From contig NZ_CP029479.1 in assembly GCF_003150835.1 (NCBI RefSeq), positions 2,021,501 to 2,085,500 of the forward strand: a stretch of DNA of 64,000 nucleotides, read 5' to 3'. The stretch is from Phenylobacterium parvum (GTDB lineage Bacteria; Pseudomonadota; Alphaproteobacteria; Caulobacterales; Caulobacteraceae). The notes under the pieces are model-generated. The model did no database searches. It saw only the letters and a program-made list of their open reading frames with translations, and was not told where the DNA came from. This document shows positions 3,469 through 40,456 of this stretch, one piece after another. Made by a program: the position numbers and the translations under genes. Every line of letters starts with the position of its first letter. Position 1 is the stretch's first letter.

Positions 3469-4923
3469 TTGACCCAGTTTTCCGACCTCGGCCTCGATCG
3501 CGGCCTCCTCAAGGCCCTTTCCGACGAGGGCTATTCCACGCCGACGCCCATCCAGGCCCAGGCCATTCCCCCCGTCCTCGAGGGCCGCGACATCCTGGGC
3601 ATCGCCCAGACCGGCACCGGCAAGACCGCCGCCTTCGCCCTGCCCATCCTTCACCGCCTAGCCGCCGACCGCCGACCGGCCCCCCGGCGCGGCTGCCGCG
3701 TCCTGGTCCTGTCCCCCACCCGCGAACTGGCCACCCAGATCGGCGAGAGCTTCAAGGCCTATGGCCGGCATCTCGGCGTCTCCGTGACCGTGATCTTCGG
3801 CGGCGTGAAGTATGGCGGCCAGATGCGCGCCATGGCGCCCGGCGTCGACGTCCTGGTGGCCACTCCCGGCCGCCTGATCGACCACCTGGGCGAGAAGACC
3901 GTGACCCTGCAGGGGGTCGAGACCTTCGTCCTGGACGAGGCCGACCAGATGCTGGACATGGGCTTCATCGTCCCGATCCGCAGGATCGTGAAATACCTGC
4001 CCAAGGCCCGCCAGAACCTCTTCTTCTCGGCGACCATGCCCACCGAGATCGGCCAGCTGGCCGGCGAACTCCTGAACCCCAACCCCGTCAAGGTCTCGGT
4101 CACCCCCCAGGCCACGACAGTCGAGAAGGTCCGGCAAAAGGTCATCTTCGTAGAGCAGGACCGCAAGCGCGCCCTGCTGGCCGAGTTGTTCGAGGCCAAG
4201 GACTTCCGCCGGGTGATCGTCTTCACCCGGACCAAGCGCGGCGCCGACCGCGTGGCCCGCGCCCTGGAGCAATCCGGGGTCGAGGCGGCGGCCATCCACG
4301 GCGACAAGAGCCAGGGCCAGCGCGAGCGCGCCCTGGCGGCCTTCAAGGCCGGCGAGGTCCGCGCCCTGGTGGCCACCGACATCGCCGCCCGGGGGATCGA
4401 CATCGACGCGGTCAGCCATGTCGTCCAGTACGAGCTGCCCAATGTGCCGGAGTCCTACGTCCACCGGATCGGCCGGACGGCCCGGGCCGGGGCGGACGGC
4501 ACCGCCGTGGCCTTCTGCGCCGATGACGAGCGCAACCTCCTCAAGGACATCCAGAAGGTCACTCGCCAGACGATCCCGAACGAGGATCGCCGGCGGGATG
4601 CGGGCCTGTCGGTGATGAGCGCCCACCTGCCCGACGGCGCCAAGGAACCCTCGGCGCCCAAGGGCCGGCAGGGCCAGGGCGGCCACCGCAAGGGCGGCTC
4701 GCCCCGCAATGGCGGCGGCGCCCGGGCGGCGGACGGCTCGTCCCGTCCCGAAGGTCGCTCCGACCTGCCCGGCGGCCTGCGCAAGCAGAGGAACCGCCCG
4801 TCGTCGGCCAAGCCCGCGGGCGGCAAGCCCGGGGACTTCGCCTCCACCCGCCCCATCGACCAGTCCGCGTTCCGCGGTCCGAAGCGCGAGAGCGCCGGGG
4901 CGAAGTGGAGCCCGGTGGACTAG
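3469..4923 (+). CDS. DEAD-box ATP-dependent RNA helicase, RhlE-like
   Basis: About 484 residues. The Q motif (T-P-T-P-I-Q) is followed by Walker A T-G-T-G-K-T (Lys about 52), D-E-A-D at about 156-159, S-A-T (F-F-S-A-T-M), and motif VI H-R-I-G-R-T-A-R-A-G. A glycine-, lysine- and arginine-rich low-complexity tail from about residue 390 is typical of RhlE-type helicases acting in ribosome assembly or RNA decay. The TTG at 3469 is chosen because L-T-Q-F-S-D-L-G-L is where family homology begins. The longer frame from 3322 has no family-like sequence, and no ATG or GTG lies near the conserved start. Confidence 0.9.
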   Translation: MTQFSDLGLDRGLLKALSDEGYSTPTPIQAQAIPPVLEGRDILGIAQTGTGKTAAFALPILHRLAADRRPAPRRGCRVLVLSPTRELATQIGESFKAYGRHLGVSVTVIFGGVKYGGQMRAMAPGVDVLVATPGRLIDHLGEKTVTLQGVETFVLDEADQMLDMGFIVPIRRIVKYLPKARQNLFFSATMPTEIGQLAGELLNPNPVKVSVTPQATTVEKVRQKVIFVEQDRKRALLAELFEAKDFRRVIVFTRTKRGADRVARALEQSGVEAAAIHGDKSQGQRERALAAFKAGEVRALVATDIAARGIDIDAVSHVVQYELPNVPESYVHRIGRTARAGADGTAVAFCADDERNLLKDIQKVTRQTIPNEDRRRDAGLSVMSAHLPDGAKEPSAPKGRQGQGGHRKGGSPRNGGGARAADGSSRPEGRSDLPGGLRKQRNRPSSAKPAGGKPGDFASTRPIDQSAFRGPKRESAGAKWSPVD

Positions 4924-4942
4924 GACGGCCCGACCCCCGGCT

Positions 4943-5050
4943 GACCCCCTCCGGCCCGCATTCGCGGTCCACCTCCCCCTGGGGGGAGGAATTAGAGCGC
5001 CCAATTGCTCCCCCAAGGGGGAGCTGTCGGCGAAGCCGACTGAGGGGGTC
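4943..5050. repeat. REP-like palindromic repeat, copy 1
   Basis: About 108 bp beginning GACCCCCTCC and ending GAGGGGGTC, so the outer ends are inverted repeats. Inside is CACCTCCCCC followed by GGGGGGAGGAAT, then a second hairpin GCTCCCCCAAGGGGGAGC, then GGCGAAGCCGAC. It is almost the same sequence as copy 2, which starts 124 bp further on. The pair lies between the 3' ends of the convergent helicase and argJ genes, where such elements commonly sit and may act as a bidirectional terminator or mRNA stabiliser. Confidence 0.85.
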
Positions 5051-5066
5051 AATTCCCGTCTCCGTA

Positions 5067-5173
5067 GACCCCCTCCGGCCCGCATTCGCGGTCCACCTCC
5101 CCCTTGGGGGAGGAATGACTGAGCCTATTGCTCCCCCAAGGGGGAGCTCCCGGCGAAGCCGGGTGAGGGGGTC
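5067..5173. repeat. REP-like palindromic repeat, copy 2
   Basis: About 107 bp, same orientation and architecture as copy 1: the same outer inverted ends, the shared block CCGGCCCGCATTCGCGGTCC, and the same inner hairpin. It differs mainly in the middle spacer and in the stem GAGCTCCCGGCGAAGCCGGG, where base changes occur on both arms (CGGCTTCGCCG-type stem preserved). This suggests selection on the folded structure. It ends 16 bp before the argJ stop codon. Confidence 0.85.
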
Positions 5174-5189
5174 AGCGACGTCGCAGGAC

Positions 5190-6629
5190 CTAGCTCCGGT
5201 AATCCCCGTTGATGGCGACATACTGTTTGGTCAAATCGCAGGTCCAGATGCTGGCCGAGCCGCGGCCAACGCCGACATCGACGCTGACCTCAAGCTCATC
5301 CTTCTTCATGTAGGCGCTCATCTTCGCCTCGTCGTAGGTCGGCGAGATGAGGCCGTCCTGGGCGGCGACCAGGGGTCCGAACTGGACCTTGAGGCGAGTC
5401 CGGTCGATAGGCTCGTCCGCCCGGCCGACCGCCATGACGATCCGGCCCCAGTTGGCGTCCTCGCCCGCGAAGGCGGTCTTCACCAGGGGACTCTCGGCGA
5501 TGGTCCGGGCGATCTTGCGCGCCGAGGCGGGGCTTTCCGCGCCCGAGACGTTGATCCGCACGAACTTGGTCGCCCCCTCCCCGTCCCGCACCAGCTGAAG
5601 GGCCAGGTCCAGCAGGACCGCCTCGAGCTTTTCCCGGAAGTCCGCAAGGCGCCGGTCGCCGGCGCGGCTGATGCGCGGGGCTTCGGACTGGCCGGTGGCG
5701 AAGAGCAGGAGGGTGTCGTTCGTCGAGCGGTCGCCGTCCACAGTCACGCAGTTGAAGGTCGAGCGCGTGTAGAGGCTGGCCAGGTTCTGCAGGGCCTTGG
5801 GCGCGATGTCGGCGTCGGTGGCGACGAAGGCCAGCATGGTGGCCATGTCGGGCGCGATCATGCCCGAGCCCTTGCAGATACCGGCGATGCGAACCGTTTT
5901 TCCGTCGATCTCGGCCTCGGCGAAGGCGCCTTTGGGAAAAGTGTCCGTCGTCATGATCGCCCGGGCCGCGCCGGCCCAGGCGTCGGCCGACAGGGCGGCC
6001 TCGGCCTCGGGCAGGCGCTGGGTGATCTTCGCATCGTCGAGCAACACGCCGATGACCCCCGTCGAGGCCAGCATGACGTCGCGCTGGCGGCAGTCGAACC
6101 GCTTGGCCACCGCCGAGGCGACCCGGCGGGCGGCGTCGGCCCCGGGCTTGCCCGTGAAGGCGTTGGCGCAGCCGGCATTGACCACCAGGGCCCGGGCGTC
6201 CTCGCCCTGGGACTGGGCCAGGGCCCGCCGGCACCAGTCGACCGGCGCGGAGCCGACGCCGTGCCGGGTGAAGACCCCGGCGACGCTTGTGCCCTCGGCG
6301 AAGCGCATGACCAGGAGGTCCTCGCGCTCGTGCTTGTAGAACCCGGCCCGGCCGGTGGCGATCTCCACGCCGTCGATGGGCGGGATGCGCGGGAAGGGAA
6401 CGGCCAGGGGCGAAACCGGCAGGGCGCCCTTGGCGGGGGCTGCGGGCGCGTCCGCCGGCTCGTCGAAGGCCCGCGACTGGCGGTCGGCCCGCCGCAGGGC
6501 GGCGCGCTTCAGGGCCGAGGCCAGGGGATCCAGGGCGCGCTCGATCGTCTGGCCCACGGCCTCCACCGGCTTGGTCGCAGGCTTGCGGCGCGAGGGCCCG
6601 GACCCGGGCGAGGTCGGCTTGCGGCTCAT
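5190..6629 (-). CDS. argJ: Bifunctional glutamate N-acetyltransferase / N-acetylglutamate synthase (ArgJ)
   Basis: ArgJ moves the acetyl group from N-acetylornithine to glutamate in arginine synthesis. It is made as a precursor that cleaves itself before a nucleophilic Thr; the site is visible as P-D-M-A-T-M-L with Thr at residue 264. Other family blocks are [14 protein letters not shown], and the end segment [15 protein letters not shown]. At 479 residues it is about 70 longer than usual. The extra Lys/Arg/Ala-rich N-terminus (residues 1 to about 75) is not part of the known fold, so a downstream start is possible. Its ATG overlaps the stop of the parvulin gene by 4 bp, favouring the long form or coupling. 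Confidence 0.93.
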
Positions 6630-31829: not shown

Positions 31830-32348
31830 TCAGGCCGTCAGGGCGGTGACGACAGATTCGAAGACCTCCCGGGCCTTCTGGCGCATTTCCTCGTCGTTGG
31901 CGTCCTGGATCGGGTGATCGACCAGCAGGTAGCGCGCACCCTCCATGCCCAGCGCCTTGCGCTGGACCTCGGCGGCCTCGGCGAACTCGCTGGAGGCGAT
32001 GGAGACGGCGGGAAGCCCCTGGATCTCGAACCACACAGTGTCGTGCAGACTGCACGTCGTGCATGATCCTCAATCGGCGAGGGCTTCCACCAGGACGCTG
32101 CATTCCGACTTGATCTTCAGCCGCAGGTCCGAGGGACAGGGCTTGGTGAAGGTCGGCTTGGCGTAGCGCCGGATCTCGTTGTCCGGGAAGCGGTCGGCCA
32201 GCAGGCGCTCCAGCTCGTCGAGGAGCACGTTGCCCCGGGGCTTGCTGATGTCCAGGAGGCCGATCACCCCCTCGATGGTTCCCGTTCGCGGGGTGATCTG
32301 ACGGGCGACGGGCACGCGCTCGTCGGTCGGATCCAGGATGGTGGTCAT
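31830..32348 (-). CDS. UGSC-motif selenoprotein (in-frame UGA = selenocysteine)
   Basis: Read through the TGA at 32072-32070, the gene encodes 172 residues with Sec at position 93. The local sequence is A-D-U-G-S-C-T-T-C-S-L-H-D-T-V, the signature of the UGSC family of (seleno)proteins. The N-terminal part starts M-T-T-I-L-D-P-T-D-E-R-V and the part after Sec continues without interruption in the same frame (W-F-E-I-Q-G-L-P-A-V through E-V-F-E-S-V-V) to a genuine TGA at 31832. The start has a GGAGG site 6 nt upstream. Biochemical function is unknown; a Sec/Cys redox centre (U93, C96, C99) is inferred. It lies 31 bp after the thioredoxin-like gene and close to selC, selB and selA. Standard gene callers would break it into two fragments. 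Confidence 0.93.
32042..32072 (-). promoter_or_regulatory. Bacterial-type SECIS hairpin after the UGA codon
   Basis: In the mRNA, 18 nt separate the UGA from the loop AGUCU (32051-32047), closed by the perfect 5-bp stem CGUGC/GCACG, which can be extended by a G-C pair after an A-A mismatch. E. coli fdhF has UGA, 17 nt, then the loop AGGUCU on a GC/GC stem; the GU in the loop is what SelB recognises. Position, loop sequence and size all agree well. The hairpin is inside the coding frame, as in all bacterial selenoprotein mRNAs. Confidence 0.8.
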
Positions 32349-32379
32349 GACTTTCCTCCGAAGTCCGGAAACGAGGCTA

Positions 32380-33965
32380 TCAGCAGTCGATCTTCCTGGA
32401 AACGACCGTTGAGCCCATGGCCCCGGTGACCCAGCCGTGGAAGGCGGCCGAGAACTTGCCTGCCTCCGAACCGGCCACGACGATGTGGATATACTTGCCG
32501 TCGGCGAACTTGGGCGTGGGCGTCTCCAGCATCTCGGGCGTCATTCGCGCGGCGGAGGCGACGGGAATGCCCGCGCCGGAGATGTCGTTCGACACCATCT
32601 CGCGCAGGGGCCGGGCGGTGACCTCCTGGATCCGGGCCCGCAGCCGGTCCTTGGGATAGTCGCCGTCCACCATCAGGGTGTTGATGTGTTCGGGGCAGAC
32701 CACCAGCAGGGCGTCCACCGGCATGCGCCGGATCTTGGGCAGGAACATGCCCTCCAGCCCCAGGCCCAGGGTCCCGGCGATCTGGTCCGGGCGGCGGGAT
32801 TCCTGGTCGACGATCTGGACTGGCCCGCTGGTCATGGCGAAGGCCGTGACCACCGAGTCCTCGCGCGCAAAGCCGCGCTCGACGTGCAGGGGATCCCAGG
32901 GCGAGCCCTCCTCCCACTCGGCGAAGCACATGGTGAACTTCATGGGACTGGACAGGGTGGAACGGTCCACGCCGCCCGGCCTAGCGCCGCCGAGGTTGCG
33001 GATGATGAGCCGCACCGCCCGGCCGATGGTGGCGTTGGCGCGGTTGCCGGTCCCAAGGGCGCCCAGCTTCATGTTCATGCCGATCCGGTGGCGGATCGGC
33101 CCGTTGACGACCAGGACGGGCGAGGCGCCCATGGTGGTGGCGTTGACCCCATGGATGTTGAATTCGTCGGTGCAGACCGCCTCCAGGGCGGCGATGACCA
33201 CAGGCAGGTATTCCGGCCGGCAGCCGGCCATCACGGCGTTGATGGCGACCTTCTCCACCGTGGCCGGGGCCATGTTCGGCGGGACGATGGCGACGACGTC
33301 CTGGGGGTCGCGGGTCGTCCCCGCCAGCATCCGGACCACCCGCTCCGGGGTGGGGGGACCAGGGGCAGGCCGTCGCTGAAGCCCTGGTCAAACAGGAATT
33401 CGTCGATGTCGTCGGAGGCGGCGATCTCGATCCGGCGGGCGCGGATCGGGCTGCCCTCGGCCTCGGCGACCAGACGGTCGTGGATGTCGGGGTCCAGGTG
33501 CTTGGAGCCGCAGCCCGGGCGCCAGTCCGGCAGCTCGGCCCAGGCGATCTCTGGCCCGGAGCCGCCCAGGGCCGAAGTGACGCCCTGGACCAGGGCCTCC
33601 CACTCCGCCTTGACGAAGCCCTCCATCCCCGGCGACGCCGCGCCCCTGGCGTCGGTCCAGAAGACCGCAGGCACGCTCTCGAAGTCCCAGCCCAGGGAGG
33701 TGCGCAGGGCGCCGTCGTCCAGGATGGGCAGGGTCAGGCCGTGCCGGTCGCGGAGGATCTCGGCGCCGTCCCGGGCCTGGGCGACCATCCAGATGTCGGC
33801 CCTGTCGCCCCAGGCCTGGTGGAAGGCCTCCAGCAGGGGGGCGACCAGGTTGCAGGTGGCGCAGTCCTCCTTGGCGAAGACAACCAGGCTGGGACGGCCC
33901 GTGGGATAGCTGTGCGGGGTTCCCTCCAGGTCCTGGAGGGTGAAGGCGGGCGGGGTCGGGCTCAT
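32380..33965 (-). CDS. Thioredoxin-like two-domain protein linked to UGSC, interrupted by a -1 frameshift
   Basis: Frame one starts at ATG 33965 (GAGGA site upstream) with a thioredoxin-like domain: F-A-K-E-D-C-A-T-C-N-L gives a C-x-x-C at Cys 35 and Cys 38. It then runs into D-G-L-P-L-V-P-P (to codon 205). The remaining domain continues only in the -1 frame, T-P-E-R-V-V-R-M-L-A-G-T to the C-terminal K-I-D-C at 32380. A join at the C-run would give about 528 residues. The C-terminal domain (V-A-I-N-A-V-M-A-G-C-R-P-E-Y, H-V-E-R-G-F-A) is of a type found beside UGSC genes; I know no function. It could be a programmed frameshift, a sequencing error or a pseudogene; both halves keep normal coding composition. 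Confidence 0.78.
33351..33357 (-). other. Slippery heptamer C CCC CCA at the frameshift
   Basis: On the coding strand the zero-frame codons CCC and CCA (204 and 205) are preceded by C, giving X-XXY-YYZ. Slipping both tRNAs back by one gives CCC CCC and continues ACC CCG GAG (T-P-E), exactly the frame of the rest of the domain. A missing C in a seven-C run would look the same. Confidence 0.5.
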
Positions 33966-34025: not shown

Positions 34026-34120
34026 TGGCGGAGGTGGATGGGAATCGAACCCACCACACGCCTCAGAGACGTGTCACCGGTTTTGAAGACCGGGGAAGCC
34101 ACCAGACTCCAGTCACCTCC
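34026..34120 (-). tRNA. selC: tRNA-Sec (anticodon UCA)
   Basis: A 95-nt tRNA including an encoded 3' CCA. It shows the acceptor GGAGGUG pairing with CACCUCC, the anticodon arm CCGGU-CUUCAAA-ACCGG with anticodon UCA at 34086-34084, a long variable arm (ACACG / CGUGU stem around UCUCUGAGG), and a T-arm with GGUUCGAUUCC. The length equals that of E. coli tRNA-Sec. It starts 13 nt after the selB stop codon and ends 60 nt before the thioredoxin-like gene on the same strand, so it is probably excised from a polycistronic transcript. Confidence 0.96.
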
Positions 34121-34133
34121 AGCGTGGGAGACA

Positions 34134-36059
34134 CTAGTGCGGGACCGGCGCGGGACCGAAGCGGTTTCTTGGCGCCGTGACCTGGCGGACATCGCCCCTG
34201 CGGGCCGTATCGCCCCGGGAGTCCAGGAACTCCAGGGCCGGGACGATGAACTTGCGGGAGGTGGACAGGGCCGCCCGGGCCTCGCCCGTGGTGAACGCCA
34301 TCGGCGGGGGAAAGGCCGCGTGCAGGGCCCCGACCGCGGCATCCAGGGCGTTGAGGTGGAAGACCAGGGTCTGCCGCAGGGCGTGGTTGCGCAGGGCGAC
34401 CAGCCGACCGGACGCCAGCAGGAGTTCCATCAGGTCCGCCTCGAAGGCCGAAGGGTCCGGCGGGCTCAGGCCCCCGGCCCGGAAGTCGGACTCGATCCCG
34501 GCCAGCCGGGACAACTGGTCGGCGGAGAGGGTGGCGAAGGGGTCATGTCCGGCGAGGGCGATCCGGCCCCGCTCAAGGCGGATCTCCCCGGCGTCAGCCA
34601 GACGGTTCTCGGCCCAGGCGATCAGGGCGGGGGAAAGGGCGCGCGAAAGTCCGTTCCGGAAAGCGGCCAGGGGAATGAAGGCCTGCAGGGGCTGGCGGCC
34701 GTGGGCCTCGGCCAGCCGGTCCAGATAGGCCTGCCTCGCCGCCGCGAGGGCGGCCTCAGGAGCGAAGACGCCCTCGTCCAGGCGAATGAGGGACAGGGAG
34801 AGCGCAGCCTCGACCTCCGCCGGCGACCGCCGGGCGAGCCGGGCCGCCTCGGCCAGCGACACCGCGCCGCCGTCCCGACCTGCAAGGCCTGCTGCAATCC
34901 CGTCGAGGTCCCCGGCGAGGGTCGCCGCCAGGAGCCCGCGGCGGGCCTCGAGGGTCCGGGCCCTCAGCTCGGGAGCCACCGGGTCCAGCACACGGCCTCC
35001 GCCCAGGGTGGCGGCAGGCGAGGGACGGCGCAGGAGAAGGCGCTGGCCGGCATGGACCGGCGCGGGCGCCGCCAGGCGCAGCTGGGCCAGCCCCTCCGCC
35101 CCGGGCGCAAGGGCGGCGTCCCCGATCAGGCGGACGCGGGCGATGTCCTGCCGGGCGCCCCAGAGGACCCGGACCTCGTCCCCCGACCGGAGGGGGCGCG
35201 GGGCTTCCGGGGAGAGTGTCAGGGCGATGTCGATGCGGGCGGTGGCCGGAAAGATCCCCGGCGTGCAGAGGACCTCCCCCGGGCGGACCTCGTCCGGCGC
35301 CACGCCGCGCAGGGCCGCCGCCGCCCGGCCGCCGGCCCGGGCCGAGGCCACCTGCCGGCCGTGGACCTGGAGCTGGCGCACCTGCACCCGGCGGCCAGAG
35401 GGTTCCAGGACCCCCTCGTCACCCGCACCAAGGTCCGCACCCTGCAGGGAGCCGGTGACGACGGTCCCGGCTCCCGCGAGGCTGAACACCCGGTCCATGG
35501 GCAGGAAGACCCCCGGCAGGGGGTCGGGCGGCGGGGCCTGCGCGGCCAGGGCCCGGATCCCCCCGTGAAGGGCCTCCAGCCCCTCGCCGGTCACGGCCGA
35601 GCAGAAGACGAGGGGCGCAGAAGCCAGGAAGCTGTCCTCCATCTCGCGACGCAGGCGGGCCTCGAGGCCTGGGCGGGCGTCCGGCGGGACCAGGTCGGCC
35701 TTGGTCACCGCCACCAGGCCCAGGTTGAGGCCCATGAGGCCGGCGATCTGCAGATGCTCGCGGGTCTGGCGGGCGAAGCCCTCGACAGCGGAGACGACCA
35801 GCAGGGCCGCCCGGGCGCCCGCCGTTCCCATGACCATGGCGCGCAGGAAGTCCTCGTGGCCCGGGGCGTCCAGGAAGTCGATATCGCCGGCGGGATCCTC
35901 GCGGAAGGCGAAGCCCAGGGCGATGGACATCCCCCTCGACTTCTCCTCTGGCAGGCGGTCGGTCTCCATGCCGGTCAGGGCCCGGACCAGGGCCGTCTTG
36001 CCGTGGTTGACGTGGCCGATCACCGCCAGGCCAAGGGGCGGAGGCGGGGCGCCGGTCAC
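34134..36059 (-). CDS. selB: Selenocysteine-specific elongation factor SelB
   Basis: A 641-residue GTPase that carries Sec-tRNA to UGA codons by binding the SECIS hairpin. The G domain has G-H-V-N-H-G-K-T (G1; Asn replaces the more usual Asp), D-A-P-G-H-E-D-F (G3) and T-K-A-D (G4). Domains II and III follow. The C-terminal winged helices (about 380-641) end with S-R-K-F-I-V-P-A-L-E-F-L-D, typical of the SECIS-binding WH4. The GTG at 36059 is the start, since V-T-G-A-P precedes the G domain at the usual distance. It is divergent from selA and immediately precedes selC. Confidence 0.96.
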   Translation of the reverse strand: MTGAPPPPLGLAVIGHVNHGKTALVRALTGMETDRLPEEKSRGMSIALGFAFREDPAGDIDFLDAPGHEDFLRAMVMGTAGARAALLVVSAVEGFARQTREHLQIAGLMGLNLGLVAVTKADLVPPDARPGLEARLRREMEDSFLASAPLVFCSAVTGEGLEALHGGIRALAAQAPPPDPLPGVFLPMDRVFSLAGAGTVVTGSLQGADLGAGDEGVLEPSGRRVQVRQLQVHGRQVASARAGGRAAAALRGVAPDEVRPGEVLCTPGIFPATARIDIALTLSPEAPRPLRSGDEVRVLWGARQDIARVRLIGDAALAPGAEGLAQLRLAAPAPVHAGQRLLLRRPSPAATLGGGRVLDPVAPELRARTLEARRGLLAATLAGDLDGIAAGLAGRDGGAVSLAEAARLARRSPAEVEAALSLSLIRLDEGVFAPEAALAAARQAYLDRLAEAHGRQPLQAFIPLAAFRNGLSRALSPALIAWAENRLADAGEIRLERGRIALAGHDPFATLSADQLSRLAGIESDFRAGGLSPPDPSAFEADLMELLLASGRLVALRNHALRQTLVFHLNALDAAVGALHAAFPPPMAFTTGEARAALSTSRKFIVPALEFLDSRGDTARRGDVRQVTAPRNRFGPAPVPH

Positions 36060-36162: not shown

Positions 36163-36186
36163 CCGGCCCCAAGAGGAACCGCCCCC

Positions 36187-37647
36187 GTGACCCTGAAGCC
36201 CCCCAAGGCCGCCCGAACCGATCCCCGGCGTCAACTTCCGGCGGTCGGAGTTGTCTGCGAGGCGCCTGAAGCGGCGTCGCTTAAGGCCCGGTTCGGCGGT
36301 GCGGCCCTGACAGCTGCGGTGAGGTCAGTCCTGGCCGAGGCCCGGATGCGGCTGGCCGCCGAACCCCTCGCCCTTCCCACCGTCACGGACCTGCTGCAGG
36401 CGGTGGAAGCCCGCCTGTCCGAGGGTGTCCGCGAGACCCTGTTCCCGGTGATCAACGCCACGGGCGTGGTGATCCACACCAACCTCGGGCGGGCGCCCCT
36501 GGCGCCGGAGGCGGTGGCGGCGATCCAGGCCGTCGCCGGCTACGCCAACCTCGAGATGGACCTGGACACGGGCCGACGGTCTTCGCGGCAGGCGCACCTC
36601 GCCCCGCTGATCGCCGAGCGGACGGGGGCCGAGGCGGGCCTGGCGGTCAACAACTGCGCCGGCGCCGTCCTGCTGGCCCTGGCCGCCCTGGCGGAGGGAG
36701 CGCCGGTCATCGTGTCGCGCGGCGAGCTGGTCGAGATCGGCGGCGGCTTCCGCATCCCGGACGTGGTGGCCCAGAGCGGCTCGCGCCTGGTGGAGGTGGG
36801 AACCACCAACCGGACCCACCTGCGCGATTACGAAAGGGCCCTCGCCGAGCATCCGGACGCCCGGGTCATCCTGCGGACCCATCCCAGCAATTTCCGGATT
36901 TCAGGCTTCACCAGCGCCCCGTCCCTTGAGAGCCTGGCCCACTTCACCCACGCCCACGGCCTCCTCCTGGTCGAGGACCTGGGCGGGGGCGCCCTCGTGG
37001 ACCTCTCGCCCTTCGGCATGGCGGACGAACCGACGGTGCAGTCCAGCCTCAAGGCGGGGGCCGACCTGGTGATCTTCAGCGGCGACAAGCTGCTGGGAGG
37101 TCCCCAGGCGGGCCTGGCCGCCGGGCGCAAGGCCCTTGTGGACCGGCTGGAAGGCCATCCCCTGGCCAGGGCGCTCAGGCTGGACAAGCTGTCGGCGGCG
37201 GCCCTGGCGGCCACCCTGCGGCTCTACCGCCCGCCCTCGGACCCCTTCGCCCGGATCCCCGTCCTGAGGAGCCTGGCCCAGGACGCCCAGGCCCTGGACG
37301 CCCGCGCCCAGGACCTGCTTGCGCGGATCGAAGGCCTGCCGGGGCTCACCGCAGAGGTCATCGCGACCGAGGGCTTCGCCGGCGGCGGGGCCCTGCCCAT
37401 GCGCCCACTGCCCGGCCGCGCCCTGGCCCTGTCCTGCGAGAGCCTCGGCGACGAGGACCTGGCCCTGCGCCTGCGTACAGGCCCGACCCGCGTGCTGGGA
37501 CGCATCGAGCAGGATCGGGTGCTCCTCGAGATGCGGACGGTCGGGGACGCTGAGGTCCCGGCCCTGGCTGAAGCGATTGTTGCGGCGGCGGGGGAAATCG
37601 GCGGCGTGCCGCGACGTCATCCGGAGACGCCCCCTTCCCTCGCCTGA
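36187..37647 (+). CDS. selA: L-seryl-tRNA(Sec) selenium transferase SelA
   Basis: A 486-residue PLP enzyme that converts Ser-tRNA(Sec) to Sec-tRNA(Sec) using selenophosphate. Family blocks are I-N-A-T-G-V-V-I-H-T-N-L-G-R-A-P-L, T-T-N-R-T-H-L-R-D-Y, and F-S-G-D-K-L-L-G-G-P-Q with the PLP lysine at 301. The N-terminal domain (R-R-Q-L-P-A-V) that grips tRNA is present, and the length fits the bacterial decameric type. The start is GTG at 36187 with AAGAGGA upstream. It is divergent from selB; selD is not nearby. Confidence 0.96.
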   Translation: MTLKPPKAARTDPRRQLPAVGVVCEAPEAASLKARFGGAALTAAVRSVLAEARMRLAAEPLALPTVTDLLQAVEARLSEGVRETLFPVINATGVVIHTNLGRAPLAPEAVAAIQAVAGYANLEMDLDTGRRSSRQAHLAPLIAERTGAEAGLAVNNCAGAVLLALAALAEGAPVIVSRGELVEIGGGFRIPDVVAQSGSRLVEVGTTNRTHLRDYERALAEHPDARVILRTHPSNFRISGFTSAPSLESLAHFTHAHGLLLVEDLGGGALVDLSPFGMADEPTVQSSLKAGADLVIFSGDKLLGGPQAGLAAGRKALVDRLEGHPLARALRLDKLSAAALAATLRLYRPPSDPFARIPVLRSLAQDAQALDARAQDLLARIEGLPGLTAEVIATEGFAGGGALPMRPLPGRALALSCESLGDEDLALRLRTGPTRVLGRIEQDRVLLEMRTVGDAEVPALAEAIVAAAGEIGGVPRRHPETPPSLA

Positions 37648-37721: not shown

Positions 37722-38921
37722 GTGCCAGACCCCGGGATGTTCCCGCCGATCCGCCAGGCCGCCCTGGAGCGCCTCACAGGGTTTGTCCCGGCGGCGGGGC
37801 GCGCCTATGCGGAAGGCCGCAACCTGGACCCGGGGCCCGGCGAACCGACCGCCGTCTCACGGCTCTCCCCCTATCTTCGCCACAGGGTGCTCTCGGAAGC
37901 CGAGGTGGTCGATGCGGTGGTGCAGGCCCACGGGGTCGCCGGCGCGGACAAGTTCATCCAGGAGGTGCTCTGGCGCACCTACTGGAAGGGTTGGCTGGAA
38001 ATGCGGCCTTCCACCTGGTCGCGGTTCCTGGAGACGCGCGACCGCCAGCGGGACGGCCTGGCCGATGTGCGGGCCCTCGCCGACGCAGAGGCGGGCCGTA
38101 CGGGCATAGAAGGCTTCGACGACTGGGCCTGCGAACTCGCCCGGACCGGCTACCTGCACAACCACGCGCGCATGTGGTTCGCCTCGATCTGGATCTTCAC
38201 CCTGCGCCTGCCCTGGGCCCTGGGGGCGGATCTCTTTCTTCGCCGGCTCATCGACGCCGACCCGGCCAGCAACACCCTGTCCTGGCGCTGGGTGGCGGGC
38301 CTGCAGACACCGGGGAAGACCTACCTGGCGACCCGGGAGAACATCGCCCGCTTCACGGGGGGCCGCTTCGCCCCTTCGGGCCTCGCGACGGACGCCTTTT
38401 CCCTGGTGGAGGCGCCGCCTGAACCCCCGGCGGGCCTGCCGCCGGCCGCAGGCTCACCGCCGCCCGGGCCCTTCCTGCTGCTGGCGACGCCGGAGGACCT
38501 GACCCCCGAACTTGGAGGCATTGAGCCGTCGGCGGCCGCCGCGGCGATGGTCACGGCGGATCCCAGGCTGTCCTTCGGGGAGGCCGCCCGGCGGTTCACG
38601 GCCGGCGCGGCAAGGGACGCCGCCGATCGCCTCGCCGGGCGAATGGAAGGGCCGGTGACGATCCTGGCCCGGCTCGACGCCGACGCCCTGGTCGCGGCAG
38701 CCCAGGCGGCGCAGGTGAAGACCCTTGTCACCCCCTTCGCGCCCGTGGGCCCCACGGCGGACGCCCTGGCGCAGGCCGCGCGGACGCTTGAAGCCGAGGG
38801 CCTGCGGCTCATCCAGATCCGCCGCGACTGGGACTCCCGCTTCTGGCCCCACGCCACTGCGGGCTTCGTCGCCTTCCGCAAGCAGATCCCGGCCCTGCTG
38901 GAACCGGGGATGTCCCGGTGA
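37722..38921 (+). CDS. Photolyase-like FAD-binding domain protein lacking the antenna domain
   Basis: A 399-residue protein. Residues 1 to about 230 match the FAD-binding helical domain of the photolyase/cryptochrome family (S-R-L-S-P-Y-L-R-H-R, F-I-Q-E-V-L-W-R-T-Y, H-N-H-A-R-M-W-F-A-S, N-T-L-S-W-R-W-V-A-G). The usual N-terminal alpha/beta photolyase domain is missing. A separate C-terminal domain of about 150 residues, joined by a Pro/Ala-rich linker near 235-250, includes L-L-L-A-T-P-E-D-L and a possible alpha/beta fold. Function is unknown; it may act with the complete photolyase whose GTG start overlaps its stop by 4 bp. Confidence 0.82.
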   Translation: MPDPGMFPPIRQAALERLTGFVPAAGRAYAEGRNLDPGPGEPTAVSRLSPYLRHRVLSEAEVVDAVVQAHGVAGADKFIQEVLWRTYWKGWLEMRPSTWSRFLETRDRQRDGLADVRALADAEAGRTGIEGFDDWACELARTGYLHNHARMWFASIWIFTLRLPWALGADLFLRRLIDADPASNTLSWRWVAGLQTPGKTYLATRENIARFTGGRFAPSGLATDAFSLVEAPPEPPAGLPPAAGSPPPGPFLLLATPEDLTPELGGIEPSAAAAAMVTADPRLSFGEAARRFTAGAARDAADRLAGRMEGPVTILARLDADALVAAAQAAQVKTLVTPFAPVGPTADALAQAARTLEAEGLRLIQIRRDWDSRFWPHATAGFVAFRKQIPALLEPGMSR

Positions 38922-40456
38922 GGCGTCCCCTGCAGGTGGTCTGGTTCAAGCGCGACCTGCGCATCGTTGACCACCGCCCCCTTGCCCTGGCCGCCGAAGC
39001 CGGGCCGGTGCTGCCCCTCTACATCGTCGAGCCCGGGCTCTGGGCCCAGCCGGACGCCTCGGGAAGGCAGTGGGCCTTCGCCGCGGAGTGCCTCGAAGAG
39101 CTGGCGGTTTCGCTGGCTGGGCTGGGCCAGCCCCTGTGCGTCGAGGTCGGGGAGGCGGTGGAGGTGCTGGACCGAATCCACGAGGGCCATGGCGTCGCCG
39201 GCCTCTGGAGCCACGAGGAGACCGGGAATGGATGGACCTACGCCCGGGACCTGGCCGTCGGGGCCTGGGCGAAGGCGGCGGGCGTCCCCTGGCGCGAGGA
39301 ACGCCAGTTCGGCGTGATCCGCCGCCTGAAATCCAGGAACGGCTGGGCCCAGGCCTGGGACCGGGACATGGCCAGGCCGACGACGCCGCCGCCCGAAGGG
39401 CTTGTTCCCCTTGGCGGGGACTGGCCGGCGCAGCTTCCGTCGGCGGACGACCTCGGCCTGGCGCCCGACCCCTGTCCCCATCGCCAGACGGGCGGACGCA
39501 CGGCCGCAATGGAGATGCTGGAGAGCTTCCTGTCCGGGCGCGGGCGCGACTACCGCCGGGAGATGTCGAGCCCGCTTACGGCCTACGGCTCCAGTTCGCG
39601 GCTCTCGCCCCACCTGACCTGGGGGTCGATCTCTATGCGGGAGGTCGCCCAGGCCACCTGGGCGCGCCAGCGCGGGCTCCGGACTTCGGGCGCGCCCGAC
39701 GCCGGACGTTGGCGGGGGTCCCTCGCCTCCTTCTCGGGACGCCAGCACTGGCGCTGCCACTTCGTCCAGAAGCTGGAGGACGAGCCGCGGATCGAGTTCG
39801 AGAACCTCCACCGCGCCTACGACGGCGTCCGCCCGGATGCGCCCGATCCGGACCGCCTGGAGGCCTGGAGCCAGGGCCTGACCGGCTATCCCTTCCTGGA
39901 CGCCTGCATGCGGGCGCTGGACGCCCATGGCTGGATCAACTTCCGCATGCGCGCCATGCTGATGTCCTTCGCCAGCTACCACCTCTGGCTTCCCTGGCGG
40001 GAAAGCGGCCTGCACCTGGCGCGCAAGTTCGTGGACTACGAGGCGGGAATCCACTGGCCGCAGGTGCAGATGCAGTCAGGCACGACGGGCATCAACACGC
40101 TCAGGATCTACAACCCCGTGAAGCAGGGTCACGACCAGGATCCCGACGGCGCCTTCGTCCGGGCCTGGGTTCCCGAACTCGCGGCTGTCCCCGACGCCTT
40201 CCTCCATGAGCCCTGGCGCTGGGAGGGGGCGGCCAGCCTCGACTATCCCGCCCCGGTCGTCGACAACGCCGAGGCCATGCGGGCGGCCCGCGAAACCCTC
40301 CACGCCCTGCGCCGCGACAGCGGCCACAAGGGCGCCGCCCGGGTCATCGCCACCAAGCATGGAAGCCGCAAGTCCGGTCTGACCGGAACGGGCGATCGCC
40401 GGCGAGGCCGGGCAAAGCCCACGGACAGCGTCCAGCTGACCCTGGACTTCGGCTAG
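38918..40456 (+). CDS. Cryptochrome / deoxyribodipyrimidine photolyase family protein
   Basis: A 512-residue protein with the full photolyase layout. The N-terminal antenna-binding domain starts V-V-W-F-K-R-D-L-R-I-V-D-H. The C-terminal FAD domain has S-R-L-S-P-H-L-T-W-G, T-G-Y-P-F-L-D-A-C-M-R-A-L, W-I-N-F-R-M-R-A-M and G-I-N-T-L-R-I-Y-N-P. It probably repairs UV lesions with blue light or senses it. The C-terminal 60 residues are basic (K-H-G-S-R-K-S-G-L). The GTG at 38918 overlaps the preceding stop (GTGA), so both proteins should be made together. The exact photolyase class is not settled. Confidence 0.88.
   Translation: MRRPLQVVWFKRDLRIVDHRPLALAAEAGPVLPLYIVEPGLWAQPDASGRQWAFAAECLEELAVSLAGLGQPLCVEVGEAVEVLDRIHEGHGVAGLWSHEETGNGWTYARDLAVGAWAKAAGVPWREERQFGVIRRLKSRNGWAQAWDRDMARPTTPPPEGLVPLGGDWPAQLPSADDLGLAPDPCPHRQTGGRTAAMEMLESFLSGRGRDYRREMSSPLTAYGSSSRLSPHLTWGSISMREVAQATWARQRGLRTSGAPDAGRWRGSLASFSGRQHWRCHFVQKLEDEPRIEFENLHRAYDGVRPDAPDPDRLEAWSQGLTGYPFLDACMRALDAHGWINFRMRAMLMSFASYHLWLPWRESGLHLARKFVDYEAGIHWPQVQMQSGTTGINTLRIYNPVKQGHDQDPDGAFVRAWVPELAAVPDAFLHEPWRWEGAASLDYPAPVVDNAEAMRAARETLHALRRDSGHKGAARVIATKHGSRKSGLTGTGDRRRGRAKPTDSVQLTLDFG

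Follow-up and report, generated by a model that had tools for sequence, protein, structure and literature searches.

Does an in-frame UGA in the genome of the freshwater-type bacterium Phenylobacterium parvum end a short open reading frame, or does it encode selenocysteine (Sec), and if the latter, what kind of enzyme might the resulting protein belong to? The question is raised by two short minus-strand fragments near the middle of the window, by which we mean the whole stretch of 64,000 nucleotides analysed here. A preliminary description, made from the sequence alone, had proposed that the two are one selenoprotein of the UGSC family. That family was named in 2008 (Zhang and Gladyshev, 2008; PMC2398784), in an ocean survey that also suggested a thioredoxin-like (Trx-like) fold for it.

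One reading frame across a UGA

The minus-strand frame has a single interruption, the in-frame TGA at 32072-32070, and is itself closed by a TGA; 92 residues lie before the internal codon and 79 after it, so that reading it as Sec gives a product of 172 residues in which Sec occupies position 93 of the motif A-D-U-G-S-C-T-T-C. This read-through protein matches PF24696 (UGSC) with an E-value of 3.2e-48 and 164.6 bits (cut-off 25), over residues 3-171 of the protein and positions 1-171 of the 172 in the profile, and NF041046 ('UGSC family (seleno)protein') with an E-value of 4e-50 and 169.5 bits (cut-off 125). Both models span the residues flanking the UGA on each side, and these end-to-end matches bear out the proposal that the two fragments are one protein of the family; U-G-S-C-T-T-C is present in the read-through frame. 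The open flanking frame and the Shine-Dalgarno-like sequence ahead of the ATG (Table 1) were likewise found as the preliminary description had them.

Table 1. Coordinates of the UGSC gene, its partner and the Sec-insertion genes (window positions, except for selD)
Feature	Position	Strand	Basis or remark
UGSC-family selenoprotein gene, 172 aa with Sec93	31830..32348	-	PF24696, NF041046, conserved UGA
Predicted bacterial SECIS hairpin, core (CGUGC AGUCU GCACG)	32042..32056	-	Stem conservation, invariant codons
In-frame UGA (Sec93), U-G-S-C-T-T-C motif	32070..32072	-	Aligned Cys in homologue L034/L097
Shine-Dalgarno-like GGAGG, 6 nt 5' of the ATG at 32348	32355..32359	-	Sequence
Partner gene: N-terminal thioredoxin domain (CATC) and ~320-aa domain; frameshifted	32380..33965	-	Intact in relatives
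C6 run, site of the 1-nt partner frameshift	33352..33357	-	C7 in closest relative
selC, tRNA-Sec, anticodon UCA	34030..34120	-	RF01852 78.4 bits (Rfam); ARAGORN
selB, Sec-specific elongation factor	34134..36059	-	TIGR00475 above cut-off; SelB-wing_2, SelB-wing_3
selA, selenocysteine synthase, divergent from selB	36181..37581	+	TIGR00474 506 bits; PF03841 E 8e-127
selD	277958-278887 (contig)		About 1.7 Mb from the window genes

A hairpin of 5-6 bp, C[G/A]UGC[A/U]GUNUGCA[C/U]G, is predicted 13 nt 3' of the UGA. Across 56 distinct sequences its five core stem pairs are each preserved in 53-56; an alignment of 55 sequences has the same pattern. One of the pairs changes from G-C to A-U in five sequences, a compensatory exchange, and to G-U in 16, and covariation is this small because the element is nearly invariant. 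Within the hairpin all five testable codon positions use a single codon across the family set, while outside it 5 of 83 do so (Fisher P 6e-6), and its Ser codon is invariably AGT, which is rare elsewhere in these genes. Folded as a single sequence the hairpin is modestly better than its shuffles (z -1.6), and it matches no Rfam SECIS family at gathering score; when a covariance model of it was run against the genome, the sole convincing site was that of the UGSC gene. Membership of the UGSC family is thus indicated by a full-length model match above cut-off, a conserved UGA-encoded U-G-S-C, a SECIS element downstream and Sec-insertion genes in the same genome, and from these sequence comparisons we put the probability that the UGA is read as Sec in a UGSC selenoprotein at about 0.93.

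Conservation of the UGA and the machinery to read it

The preliminary description had predicted that homologues would carry Sec or Cys at position 93 and that conservation would extend across the UGA, and both are seen. Of 299 Caulobacteraceae genomes 30 have a UGSC-family match, with an in-frame TGA in 28, and in 27 of these 28 the match is a close homologue (76-99% identity) that reads U-G-S-C at this position; the nearest named relatives, Phenylobacterium MAGs within the Caulobacteraceae, are 98% identical. A genome of the same genus (G229, locus L034/L097) has Cys-Gly-Ala-Cys in place of U-G-S-C, and no tRNA-Sec above the tRNA-Ser-like background. Among the close or Chloroflexota loci that were read, the UGA also stands at the site in Hyphomonadaceae, one gammaproteobacterial MAG and Dehalococcoidia (Chloroflexota), and many other alphaproteobacterial genomes have UGA-type UGSC genes, several of them in multiple copies. 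Mean pairwise NG86 dN/dS is 0.18 5' of the UGA and 0.11 3' of it, and there is purifying selection on both sides; together with the PF24696 match and the conservation of the UGA and its flanks, these values exclude a frame kept open by chance. A search of IMG/VR (query P0001) returned no viral relatives.

A clear tRNA-Sec gene is present in 27 of the 28 UGA-type genomes and in 9 of the 271 others (Fisher P 1e-29, inflated by the relatedness of the genomes, although the pattern is clear nonetheless), where tRNA-Sec was called by a gap in score, at least 61 bits versus a background of at most 56, a threshold set post hoc as the RF01852 cut-off alone gave no separation from tRNA-Ser-like matches. 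In G115, the one UGA-type genome without a clear tRNA-Sec, the contig with the UGSC gene is 3 kb long and the gene lies at its edge, and both genomes with only non-UGA forms also lack a clear tRNA-Sec. Among the 27 genomes with a close homologue, 24 have the UGSC gene and selC on one contig, ~2 kb apart, and the other three have the UGSC gene at a contig edge. With clear tRNA-Sec genes in about 36 of the 299 genomes, the use of Sec is patchy in the Caulobacteraceae. Two genomes (G108 and G144) have two high-scoring tRNA-Sec genes each, one adjoining the UGSC gene and the other (~87 nt) elsewhere, which suggests two separate Sec systems. Several UGA-type UGSC homologues, up to eight per genome, were seen in G484, G577, G654, G492, G661 and G377, and some of these selenoprotein-rich alphaproteobacteria also carry PrdB-like UxxC selenoproteins.

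A lone UGA in a short open reading frame is a frequent kind of artefact, and the adjoining partner gene does have a frameshift in this assembly. Yet the notion that this codon simply terminates translation, or was misread from a Cys codon in sequencing, with only a relic frame behind it, is refuted by the conservation of the UGA and is exceedingly improbable: the identical codon recurs in dozens of independently assembled genomes, selection 3' of it is as strong as 5', and UGA-type genes track tRNA-Sec while the genome of the Cys homologue has no clear tRNA-Sec.

The P. parvum genome is a single contig of 2.83 Mb, and the minus-strand order of genes is selB, selC, partner gene, UGSC gene, with SelB carrying the winged-helix domains that bind SECIS elements. 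The earlier claim that the Sec machinery lies upstream on the same strand therefore holds for selC and selB and fails for selA, which is on the opposite strand. Sec genes of this kind have been reported from the Caulobacterales (Mukai, 2021; PMC8124441), and the alphaproteobacterial selBC clusters described there, Caulobacterales included, share with this locus a selB followed by selC on the same strand and further open reading frames behind. Unlike the arrangement of that report, selC is not nested in selB but lies outside it, a 13-nt gap separating the two. The published clusters also serve formate dehydrogenase, whereas no convincing Fdh-alpha was found in the P. parvum genome, where the weak matches contain no stops. 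Scans of the genome for PF07355 (no match), for Fdh-alpha and for further UGSC-type SECIS elements flanked on either side by a long read-through frame (none found) were not exhaustive; they brought no second selenoprotein to light, so selABCD may be retained for the UGSC enzyme alone. Each of two adjoining plus-strand open reading frames (37722-38921 and 38918-40456) has a match to the photolyase FAD-binding domain, only a partial one in the first; duplication of a photolyase/cryptochrome gene, or a frameshift in it, may account for the pair.

The case had been thought probably poorly described, Caulobacteraceae not being generally regarded as users of Sec. We found no report of Sec use in Phenylobacterium in the open-licence literature, but the case is less undescribed than supposed because of the selBC genes known from Caulobacterales (PMC8124441), the curated PF24696 and NF041046 models and the name 'UGSC family (seleno)protein' that NCBI already gives to such proteins.

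The partner gene and the predicted fold

In relatives, the partner is an intact frame of ~530 aa. Its thioredoxin domain has CxTC in 33 of 33 cases and gives ResA/Trx matches; the ~320-aa domain has no Pfam or NCBIfam match, and its invariant residues include two Cys (44 of 44). A sequence search of the PDB recognises only the Trx part, and Trx/ResA matches dominate when the partner model is run through Foldseek. The partner family (A4, e.g. L078:4368-5966) is conserved across bacteria and haloarchaea. A hidden duplication relating UGSC to the partner was considered and rejected (hhalign 0.3%). In the window the partner frame is split by the loss of one C from a run that is C7 in the closest relative, and the other relatives read have an uninterrupted frame; the frameshift is likely an assembly error, but a genuine one might leave this strain with a module that does not work.

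The linkage of the two genes is close to invariant: of 124 loci, 110 have the partner within 500 bp of the UGSC gene and in the same orientation, and most of the others are at contig ends. At five loci UGSC(UGA) and the partner are fused in a single chain, and the UGSC/Unknown_1 fusion mentioned in the 2008 survey (PMC2398784) is probably this same fusion. The two are also in one chain on a conjugative plasmid of Acidovorax sp. T1 (L170, NZ_CP021650.1), where an annotated 96-aa 'hypothetical protein' (4908-5198) ends at the Sec UGA and is thus a misannotated plasmid-borne selenoprotein gene.

The neighbourhoods of the pair suggest carboxylate or acyl-CoA metabolism. An Arthrobacter locus reads trxB-trxA-partner-UGSC(Cys), a Roseovarius locus reads partner-UGSC-trxB and adjoins a CaiB CoA-transferase and a TRAP transporter, and the Cys forms of haloarchaea lie near CoA-transferase, TRAP or acyl-CoA genes. 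Divergent UGSC-like/partner fusions without the UxxC residues, in Sporomusa (L172) and Vibrio europaeus (L174), adjoin aconitase X (AcnX/DUF126), hinting at hydroxy-acid metabolism.

An AlphaFold2 model of UGSC built with 47 sequences (pLDDT 94.3) contains five strand-helix units in succession and places Sec93 immediately ahead of a helix formed by residues 94-109. Its top Foldseek matches in the PDB are FMN reductases and flavodiiron/flavodoxin-like domains (TM about 0.4-0.5), and the predicted structure does not have the thioredoxin topology; the model thus argues for a flavodoxin-like fold and not for the Trx-like one suggested by the 2008 survey.

At the sequence level, UGSC may be remotely related to the GrdB/PrdB selenoproteins. 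In a profile alignment (hhalign) with GrdB/PrdB-like UxxC selenoproteins, Sec falls on Sec and Cys on Cys with an E-value of 1.2e-4 and a probability of 55.6%, the comparison sequences being taken from the same class and two unrelated controls giving 0.3% and 0.1%. Trx-system neighbours in some loci are a further likeness; the differences are that no UGSC homologue (set A3) matches PF07355, that UGSC has about 170 aa as against a profile of 347 positions, and that the partner is unrelated at the sequence level to the pyruvoyl subunits, whose Pfam families match none of its 44 members. Alphaproteobacterial PrdB/GrdB-like proteins with an in-frame TGA were also found among the PF07355 matches (L132-L151); at the loci read through, the context is mostly V-P-[VA]-U-P-x-C, and the match found by the family search ended before the TGA, for which reason no internal stop was reported.

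A candidate reductase in two parts

How might such a pair work? SelB, guided by the hairpin 3' of the UGA, would insert Sec from tRNA-Sec at position 93. In the predicted flavodoxin-like alpha/beta fold of the protein, Sec93 stands where a helix starts and Cys96 follows one turn later. The near-invariant linkage and the gene fusions point to UGSC and the ~320-aa partner domain being one enzyme. Sec93 would be the nucleophile acting on a small-molecule substrate, which is probably a carboxylate or a metabolite of the CoA type, and Cys96 would resolve to give a Sec93-Cys96 selenenylsulfide; the Trx domain of the partner (CxTC) would then reduce this bond and would itself be recharged by thioredoxin reductase. 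Judged from sequence comparisons, it is rather probable that UGSC and its partner constitute a Trx-fed two-component reductase of this kind, in which the gene neighbourhoods suggest UGSC as the catalytic half.

A narrower possibility, which we regard as doubtful, is that the pair is a true relative of glycine and proline reductases, the partner holding the substrate as GrdE or PrdA does and Sec93 reductively cleaving a C-N, C-O or similar bond. The register of the Sec columns would fit this, as would an operon with trxA and trxB, which resembles those of glycine reductases, and the CoA-transferases, TRAP transporters and aconitase X nearby, which suggest carboxylate catabolism; however, the homology probability is only 56%, PF07355 and the pyruvoyl-subunit families have no match, and the organisms bearing UGSC are largely aerobic, unlike the classical users of glycine and proline reductases. 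Still less likely is a role for UGSC and its partner in stress defence, detoxifying electrophiles or metals rather than serving catabolism: many selenoproteins do so and the flavodoxin-like reductase matches would be consistent with it, but resistance or stress genes are not consistently found beside UGSC, whose neighbours are mainly genes for transport and for acyl-CoA or carboxylate metabolism. That UGSC acts alone as a Trx-fold oxidoreductase, a general thiol or peroxide reductase, is very unlikely, for although the UxxC motif is typical of Trx-like selenoproteins, the model with its five strand-helix units matches flavodoxin-like folds rather than Trx, UGSC is tied to the partner in nearly all loci, and the partner already supplies a separate Trx domain.

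For the two-component reductase it is tempting to go further and speculate that UGSC and its partner are the halves of an uncharacterised class of Trx-fed reductive enzymes, a class with a distant kinship to glycine and proline reductases that serves small-carboxylate catabolism in aerobic bacteria and haloarchaea and is mostly selenium-dependent in Alphaproteobacteria; put this fully, the proposal is a tentative one.

In its full-length match, its U-G-S-C, its UGA with a hairpin downstream, and the prevalence of Sec forms in Alphaproteobacteria, the gene studied here does not differ in anything essential from the UGSC family as known (PMC2398784; PF24696; NF041046), apart from standing directly behind selB-selC and the gene that fuses Trx to the partner domain, and from a predicted fold other than the one described in 2008. 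The Phenylobacterium gene is one more well-supported case of a described family. What is newly added is an unannotated partner domain, the fusions with UGSC, the link to thioredoxin and the predicted flavodoxin-like fold, which would revise the thioredoxin fold surmised in 2008; together these turn a protein of 'function unknown' into a testable candidate for a two-component reductase.
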